Part shown: positions 12,226 to 14,840 of the stretch, in pieces
Position numbering within the stretch: position 1 is the stretch's first letter
Layout of the letters: every line of letters starts with the position of its first letter
Origin: an uncultured Mycoplasmatota bacterium
Lineage (GTDB): Bacteria; Bacillota_I; Bacilli_A; RF39; UBA660
Length of the DNA stretch: 33,002 nucleotides
Direction: 5' to 3'
NCBI GenBank assembly: GCA_946494015.1
Contig: CAMMBL010000006.1
Location: forward strand, 1 to 33,002
Translations under genes and position numbers: made by a program
The notes under the pieces: generated by a model
Told to the model about the DNA's origin: nothing
The model's database searches: none
Seen by the model: the letters and a program-made list of their open reading frames with translations, nothing else

Positions 12226-12238
12226 TAAATAATTAAAA

Positions 12239-12280
12239 AATACAGTCTTATAACAGAGATTGTATTTTATTTTTTTTGCT
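12239..12280 (+). terminator. Terminator after ftsK
   Basis: AATACAGTCT ... AGATTGTATT hairpin followed by a T-rich tract (TTATTTTTTTT). Confidence 0.7.
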
Positions 12281-12306
12281 TTCTTGTGATCGCTGTGCCA
12301 TTAATG

Positions 12307-12345
12307 CAAGAAATATACAAGAAATATAAATAAAGTGCAAGAAAA
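12307..12345. repeat. Tandem 11-bp repeat (CAAGAAATATA x2) plus a third CAAGAAAA copy; possible operator
   Basis: CAAGAAATATA at 12307-12317 and 12318-12328; CAAGAAAA at 12338-12345, upstream of the wHTH gene. Confidence 0.5.
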
Positions 12346-12399
12346 CTATTTACAAACTTTTATAGATATGATATGTTTTTAATGAAAGGAGGTAAGAAT

Positions 12400-13314
12400 G
12401 TGACAACAAGTGCAAAAATACAAGAAAAAATACTTGAATTTTTAGAAGATTGTCGTGATCATTCAGTACAAGAAATAAAAAAATATTTGGAAGAAGTTAA
12501 TCTTGATGATTATACGGAAGGACAGTTTGCTGGTTCCATAAATACTTTAGTTAGAAATGGATCTATTAGAAAAAAAGATAGAGGGGTTTATGCTTTAAAA
12601 ATAGGAAGTGAAAAAAGAAAAACTTGTTTTGTTGTATCACCTATTGGAAGTGAAGGTAGTCCTACAAGAAATAATGCTGATAAATTATTTAAATATATTA
12701 TTAAACCAGCATGTGATGAGTGTGATTTTCAGGCAATTAGAGTTGATAAATTAAATGATGCTAATTCTATTACACAAACGATTATTGAACAACTTGAAGA
12801 AGCTGATTTAGTAATCGCTGATATTTCTTTTCATAATCCTAATGTTTTTTATGAGATGGGATTTAGAGCAAGAACAAAAAAACCAATTATTCATTTAAAA
12901 ACTAAAAATGAACAGATTCCATTTGATGTAAATACCATTCGTACTTTTGATTATGATTTAACAGATTTAGATAATGTTTCAGAAATAAAAAGTCGGTTAG
13001 TAAAAACAATAAAGTCCTTCAATTATAAAGAAGATGAAGAAGAATTAGAATTAGATGAAGATATAGATACTAAACCTTCTATTATTCCTTTACTATATCA
13101 AATTTTAGATGCTATTGCCGATTTAAAAAAAGAAGTTAAAAATATTAATACTGAAACTATTGGTACAGTAATTAAATCTATGCAAAATTCCAATGTTAAT
13201 AATTCTTCATTATCATCTATTGAAAGAGATGCTCTGATTGAATTATTAAGTAATCCTGATAGTATTGTAAATTTAATTAAATTATCTAAAGAACTTTCTT
13301 TTGCAAAAAAATAA
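12400..13314 (+). CDS. Winged-helix N-terminus plus TIR/nucleoside-2-deoxyribosyltransferase-like nucleotide-binding protein
   Basis: N-term QEKILEFLEDCRDHSVQEIKKYLEE...SINTLVRNGSIRKKDRGVYAL (wHTH-like). Core CFVVSPIGSEGSPTRNNADKLFKYIIKPAC...ADLVIADISFHNPNVFYEMGFRARTKKPIIHL. AAAGGAGGT at 12385-12393 favours GTG 12400. Confidence 0.7.
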   Translation: MTTSAKIQEKILEFLEDCRDHSVQEIKKYLEEVNLDDYTEGQFAGSINTLVRNGSIRKKDRGVYALKIGSEKRKTCFVVSPIGSEGSPTRNNADKLFKYIIKPACDECDFQAIRVDKLNDANSITQTIIEQLEEADLVIADISFHNPNVFYEMGFRARTKKPIIHLKTKNEQIPFDVNTIRTFDYDLTDLDNVSEIKSRLVKTIKSFNYKEDEEELELDEDIDTKPSIIPLLYQILDAIADLKKEVKNINTETIGTVIKSMQNSNVNNSSLSSIERDALIELLSNPDSIVNLIKLSKELSFAKK

Positions 13315-13340
13315 AGAGATTTCTTATATGGTCTCTTTTT
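13313..13340 (+). terminator. Terminator after the TIR/NDT-like gene
   Basis: AAAGAGA ... TCTCTTT followed by TT. Confidence 0.6.
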
Positions 13341-14237: not shown

Positions 14238-14840
14238 ATGAAGAAGATAGTATTTGCAACTTCTAATGAAACTAAATCTAAAAGATTTAGTGAAGGACTA
14301 TTAAAAAAAGAAATAGAAGTGTTATCTTTAAAAGATATAGATCTTAAATTAAATATAGAAGAAGATGGTAGTAGTGTTATAGATAATGCTTTAATAAAAG
14401 CAAGAGAGTGTTATAAGAAGACAAAGATGCCTAGTATAGGAATGGATGATTCTTTATATATGGAAGGAGTTCCTTTAGATAGACAGCCAGGTTTATTTGT
14501 TAGAAGAATAAATGGAAAGACGTTAACTGATGAAGAAATGATTGAATATTATACTAATTTAGTAAAAGAATATGGAATAAATGAAAGAATTAATTGTAAA
14601 TGGATATATGGTTTGGCAGTTATTGATGAAAAAGGAAGAGAAGCGACTTATACTTGGTTTAAAGATGATTTTTATATGGTAAGTAAGAGAAGTGATAAGC
14701 TTAATAAGGGGTATCCTTTAAATTCAATATCTAAATATAAAAAATTAGATAAGTATTTTACTGATGTTACTTTTGATGAGATGAAGTTAATTGAGGTAAA
14801 TGAAGATGATGTTGTGGACTTTATTGCAAGTCATATATGA
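14238..14840 (+). CDS. Divergent non-canonical purine NTP pyrophosphatase (RdgB/HAM1-like)
   Basis: IVFATSNETKSKRF, NALIKARECYKKTKMPSIGMDDSLYMEGVPLDRQPGLFVRRINGKTLTDEEM. Confidence 0.7.
   Translation: MKKIVFATSNETKSKRFSEGLLKKEIEVLSLKDIDLKLNIEEDGSSVIDNALIKARECYKKTKMPSIGMDDSLYMEGVPLDRQPGLFVRRINGKTLTDEEMIEYYTNLVKEYGINERINCKWIYGLAVIDEKGREATYTWFKDDFYMVSKRSDKLNKGYPLNSISKYKKLDKYFTDVTFDEMKLIEVNEDDVVDFIASHI

Follow-up and report, generated by a model that had tools for sequence, protein, structure and literature searches.

TIR effectors of the CBASS, Thoeris and SPARTA systems and the DUF4062 protein Swarozyc have in common a TIR-like Rossmann fold, a catalytic glutamate and a phenylalanine where NDT enzymes carry a tyrosine. 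NAD+ is the best known ribose substrate in defence. In NDT and DNPH1 the tyrosine hydrogen-bonds the glutamate and accompanies 2'-deoxy specificity, and in TIR NADases the usual residue there is Phe or Ala (PMC11204291). NAD+ hydrolysis in defence is reported for the NDT-like effector of retron-Eco1 and for TIR-like DUF4062 (PMC12774641, PMC12887533, PMC13174449), and in retron type II-A/Eco1 the NDT-like core is associated with a winged helix (Carabias et al. 2024, cited in PMC12774641). AbiEi, an antitoxin and repressor with an N-terminal winged helix, represses its own promoter through repeats, and AbiE loci are type IV toxin-antitoxin systems (PMC3985639). The literature search found no paper on the effector family described here or on an AbiEi-NDT fusion.

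The gene lies in a stretch of 33,002 nucleotides from an uncultured gut bacterium of the Mycoplasmatota (the window) and is, judged from sequence and predicted structure, probably a one-gene anti-phage system. With AbiEi it shares the kind of winged helix and the repeats at its own promoter; unlike AbiEi, it has a TIR/NDT-like core in place of the C-terminal antitoxin domain and comes without an AbiEii toxin. The fold, the glutamate and the phenylalanine of TIR-like NADases are all present (E152, F77), and the distribution is of the defence type known from CBASS, Thoeris and SPARTA TIR effectors and Swarozyc. However, there is no CD-NTase, ThsA or pAgo partner and no STING, SAVED or DUF4062 domain, and CBASS and Thoeris were rejected as the one-gene insert holds no partner signalling enzyme or effector gene. 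DNPH1/Rcl and the CMP N-glycosidases MilB and BcmB share the fold and the catalytic Glu motif, but lack the winged helix and the helical tail, and DNPH1 has Tyr where this protein has Phe. The association of winged helix and NDT-like core recalls the retron effector. A retron was rejected: the window contains no reverse transcriptase or Rfam match, and no PADLOC retron model was matched. The only reverse transcriptase of the genome lies on another contig (C1:48275-51928; 317 aa, YMDD motif), with a 113-aa Avd-like ORF before it and an acetate-kinase-like gene after it, and looks like that of a diversity-generating retroelement rather than a retron.

Insertion site and gene model

The features of the locus are as follows.

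12226..13309, + strand: inserted segment of 1,084 bp between the ftsK stop and the original ftsK terminator, missing in same-genus genomes
12237..12277, + strand: insert-borne intrinsic terminator 3' of ftsK, a 13-pair hairpin with T-tract
12282..12342, no strand assigned: putative operator with CAAGA/TCTTG repeats at 12282-12286 (-) and at 12307-12311, 12318-12322 and 12338-12342 (+)
12349..12377, + strand: likely promoter TTTACA-17-TATGTT with TG preceding the -10, from a consensus scan whose hits did not outnumber those in shuffles
12385..12392, + strand: Shine-Dalgarno sequence AAAGGAGG, conserved across the four-way fusion alignment
12400..13314, + strand: winged-helix-NDT/TIR-like effector gene, 304 aa, GTG start
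12400..12597, + strand: N-terminal winged helix of AbiEi type, residues 1-66
12616..13020, + strand: NDT/TIR-like, flavodoxin-like predicted catalytic core, residues 73-207
12628..12630, + strand: Phe77, at the position of the NDT/DNPH1 active-site Tyr
12853..12855, + strand: Glu152, predicted catalytic glutamate
13027..13305, + strand: C-terminal helical region, residues 210-302
13313..13338, + strand: original ftsK terminator, now ending the effector gene; an identical hairpin follows ftsK in locus L013

The gene is an accessory, horizontally acquired insertion. In 13 genomes of the same genus the site is empty: ftsK (95-97% amino acid identity) is followed by 60-82 bp and then by the U32 gene, and the sequence shared with these genomes resumes at AATAAAGAGATTTCTTA, window position 13310. 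The insert, a single gene between housekeeping flanks, supplies its own promoter and a new terminator for ftsK, and the old ftsK terminator is reused for the effector gene. The effector gene is missing from the 29 further same-genus loci retrieved around U32. It occurs in one of 117 family genomes and one of 385 order genomes, in each case the source genome; a core relative of some kind was found in 6 of 392 phylum genomes, source genome included. Some same-genus genomes carry other genes upstream of U32, hence the ftsK-U32 site is not always preserved. No recombinase accompanies the insert. The original prediction had taken the gene for an accessory insertion in housekeeping DNA, isolated between terminators, and had proposed a presence/absence check in which universal conservation at the site would speak against it; distribution is patchy and no further genome in the family and order samples has the gene, so that this part of the prediction stands.

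The two flanking terminators fold at -12.8 kcal/mol (z -6.8; upstream) and -8.1 kcal/mol (z -2.6; downstream), although a strict consensus terminator scan listed neither. The span first proposed, 12373-13340, had to be corrected at both ends: ATG 12373, where the longest ORF begins, lies within the likely -10 hexamer TATGTT (12372-12377), and 13340 is the terminator end. A GTG start behind a strong Shine-Dalgarno sequence had been predicted as well and was borne out, with the gene running from GTG 12400 to a TAA stop at 13312-13314. Promoter position and AT-rich hexamers recur at the three other fusion genes described below (L002-L004).

Further downstream in the window, a HAM1/XTP-pyrophosphatase-like gene (14238-14840) sits between two U32 peptidase genes, which are directly adjacent in the same-genus loci L025, L030, L032, L036, L037 and L039.

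Protein architecture and active site

An AlphaFold model built with 39 homologues has a mean pLDDT of 85, with values mostly above 90 in the winged helix (1-66) and the core (73-207). The winged helix consists of helices 4-17, 23-32 and 40-52, a short strand after the first helix and strands 56-60 and 63-66. Folded alone it reached pLDDT 92.9 and resembled generic PDB winged helices at a TM-score of about 0.8, with no structural match in the PDB reaching E 0.001. Its AbiEi character comes from profiles: each of the four fusions is hit by AbiEi models of PADLOC, at E 5e-5 in the best case, and three of the four match Pfam AbiEi_4, with a best E of 4e-4 that lies under the curated cut-off. The third-helix region TEGQFAGS-NT is invariant in the four fusions.

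When the core was compared with the PDB by Foldseek, NDT (E 1.2e-6) and DNPH1 (1.1e-5) came ahead of the SfSTING TIR (1.6e-5) and SPARTA (2.9e-5); TIR-STING and SPARTA TIR matches span E 1.6e-5 to 8e-5, and as NDT has the same fold they are not exclusive. The PADLOC 'Effector TIR' model matches at E 1.9e-12 and is matched by all 39 homologues tested. Pfam Nuc_deoxyrib_tr (PF05014) gives E 3e-5 at 24.5 bits, below the cut-off of 28.8, and DUF4062 is absent among Pfam matches up to E 1. Among solved structures phmmer found no relatives, and a profile search found only DNPH1 (E 0.06 and 0.014), the remaining matches being coiled-coil noise. The closest phage family is phrog_3634, a temperate-phage family of uncharacterised function that includes Streptococcus phage SM1 gp11 and is found in Staphylococcus phage SA13_16. 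Its profile (positions 3-232 of 237) aligns with residues 73-302 at E 2.2e-54, covering the core and the C-terminal helices (211-302), which are predicted with lower confidence and are likely an oligomerisation module.

Seven residues are invariant across the 39 homologues: F77, N146, N148, E152, P174, F175 and D176. In a profile alignment to NDT-family proteins the hhalign probability is only 43%, yet both anchor motifs line up, with Glu152 opposite the NDT and DNPH1 glutamate and Phe77 opposite the Tyr of IYIAGP. Cys76 was rejected as the counterpart of this tyrosine since the alignment places Phe77 there. An invariant phenylalanine at the deoxy-selective position favours a ribose-type substrate such as NAD+ for the core.

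Most of what had been said of the protein from its sequence holds. The ORF and its domains are confirmed by homologues that are 58-65% identical over the full length, the NDT/TIR fold and the C-terminal helical tail appear in the predicted structure, and the conserved E of NPNVFYEMG, singled out as a residue to mutate, is Glu152. As to the combined TIR/NDT assignment, the shared fold stands and the NDT label is weak, with the Pfam match below cut-off and the diagnostic Tyr exchanged for Phe.

Promoter repeats in four fusion genes

Only four fusions of this kind are known in total, the source gene included. The three others, 58-65% identical and full-length, come from two metagenome-assembled genomes (MAGs), a rumen Oscillospiraceae MAG with two copies (L002 and L004) and a rabbit Clostridia MAG (L003); the hosts 'rumen' and 'rabbit' are taken from the names of the isolates. 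A search of the Oscillospiraceae MAG's family returned only that MAG's own two copies, and the winged helix was found in no other protein among viral contigs, plasmids and the 392 phylum genomes.

Within the 174 bp preceding the effector gene there are four copies of CAAGAAA. The repeats were first spotted by eye in the window and then tested in the three other fusions, whose surroundings are unrelated. Per 150 bp upstream the four genes have 4, 4, 3 and 4 copies of CAAGA (single-locus P 0.00025, 0.00025, 0.0105 and 0.001, respectively), placed immediately ahead of the -35 element. Relative to the start codon they lie mostly at about -97 to -92, -84 to -82, -76 and -67 to -62. CAAGA is the top 5-mer common to the four regions (minimum 3, sum 15), against a minimum of 2 and a sum of 11 in the best of 300 Markov sets, and the upstream regions of 44 phage relatives lacking the winged helix hold 0-1 copies (mean 0.25). 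The presence of 3-4 CAAGA repeats upstream of the -35 in all four fusions is new here.

Because these repeats stand at the gene's own promoter in 4/4 fusions and the domain matches AbiEi models, the winged helix probably regulates its own gene, and autoregulation of the fusion gene through the CAAGA repeats is well supported by the sequence comparison. Repression, not activation, is inferred as the sign of this regulation by analogy with AbiEi. The original prediction had left open whether the domain is a sensor or a DNA-binder; the domain is real, but it need not sense phage, and a self-repressor seems more likely than a phage sensor. Elsewhere in the genome the three-repeat pattern is found only once, and thus no regulon is evident.

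Mobile and defence-type surroundings were found for relatives of the gene. L004 has a type IIG restriction enzyme-methyltransferase upstream and a serine recombinase directly downstream. L002 lies 12 bp upstream of a CAP12-type TIR-like gene, with which it possibly forms one operon; that gene (L002 1911-3521) encodes a 537-aa protein whose N-terminal CAP12-type domain matches weakly, below the Pfam cut-off. Beside the rabbit MAG copy L003 no known defence gene was found, and the source gene itself has housekeeping neighbours; both points speak against a defence role. A core relative in L010 comes after HsdS, a type I specificity subunit; there (946-1893) the core is fused to another N-terminal domain without family assignment.

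Mechanism, alternatives and phage relatives

Because of the family fold, the patchy distribution, the mobile context and the neighbours of the relatives we read the gene as a defence gene, and we consider it rather probable that it is a horizontally acquired, self-regulated abortive-infection effector consisting of one gene. In such a scheme the N-terminal winged helix would bind the CAAGA repeats near the -35 and, like AbiEi, hold its own expression low, and the C-terminal helices would hold the TIR/NDT-like core together. A phage component or an altered assembly might then trigger the core, which would cleave a ribonucleotide, with NAD+ as the likeliest one, at its N-glycosidic bond, and growth would be arrested ahead of phage release. 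Relatives in temperate phages might likewise protect the lysogen from competing phages. No phage-sensing domain was identified in the effector protein. A bolder version, to which we give only a small chance, would have the same chain act as repressor and executioner, the AbiEi-type winged helix parking on the CAAGA operator until DNA release or phage-induced assembly derepresses the gene and activates the NAD+-cleaving core. If autoregulation and NAD+ cleavage are both true, the gene shows a partner-free way to keep a single-gene effector quiet. With regulator, likely operator and effector packed in 1.1 kb, the fusion is directly testable.

Accessory status and mobile context would also fit other kinds of cargo. 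It might be possible that upon phage attack the core drains nucleotide pools as a ribo- or deoxyribonucleotide N-glycosidase (a CMP/dNMP hydrolase or an NDT-like enzyme) and is not an NADase. NDT and DNPH1 are the best PDB folds, MilB and BcmB are listed too, the top viral structure match carries a CMP/hydroxymethyl-CMP hydrolase annotation, the Nuc_deoxyrib_tr match points the same way, and Phe77 may be compatible with ribonucleotide N-glycosidases such as CMP hydrolases as well. However, the deoxy-selective tyrosine is lost throughout the homologues, the Pfam score misses its cut-off and PADLOC groups the core with TIR effectors; we regard this activity as unlikely.

The winged helix, the conserved putative operator and a Rossmann-like core that could bind nucleotides would also suit a transcription regulator with a non-catalytic NAD or nucleotide sensor, yet Glu152 is invariant in 39 homologues, most of which have no winged helix, and the genome offers no evident regulon; such a role appears improbable. 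Slightly less probable still is a one-chain, toxin-antitoxin-like selfish module, in which a repressor of the AbiEi type fused to a toxin would serve element stability and not defence. The winged helix, the putative operator and the type IV nature of AbiE loci speak for it, but the insert has no antitoxin (the AbiEi C-terminal domain) and no second gene, and the window holds no mobile element to stabilise. NDT salvage enzymes belong to the same fold class, and a housekeeping enzyme of nucleoside metabolism might be considered; against this, the gene is lacking in every further genome examined from the family and order, the site is empty in same-genus genomes, relatives occur in phage and mobile contexts, and the absence in the genus nearly refutes a housekeeping role, leaving it very improbable.

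Relatives of the core (phrog_3634), which share the C-terminal helices as well, are numerous among temperate phages of Streptococcus and Staphylococcus; 44 phage records contain them, and viral contigs gave 199 hits. They are stand-alone genes too, but are phage-encoded, mostly lack an N-terminal domain (44 of 46 distinct viral relatives) and, in the 44 upstream regions compared, lack the CAAGA cluster. Our analysis flags phrog_3634 and its relatives as probable prophage immunity genes. With a simple ORF caller the downstream neighbour was convergent in 39 of 47 distinct viral loci, both neighbours were opposed in 21 and both co-directional in only 5. The S. aureus prophage defence gene Tha lies antisense within a phage operon (PMC11087260), a layout that most of the viral loci share with regard to the downstream neighbour. 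In phage SM1 (L005 4692-5457) gp11 has about 47 bp at its 3' end in common with gp10 on the opposite strand, which recalls the antisense overlap that switches Tha off on prophage induction. In two viral relatives (L082 5305-6477 and L116 1-1191) the same core is joined to an N-terminal domain of another kind, longer than 200 aa, and the core is also found on many proteobacterial plasmids, within proteins annotated as TRAFs-binding or tetratricopeptide-repeat.
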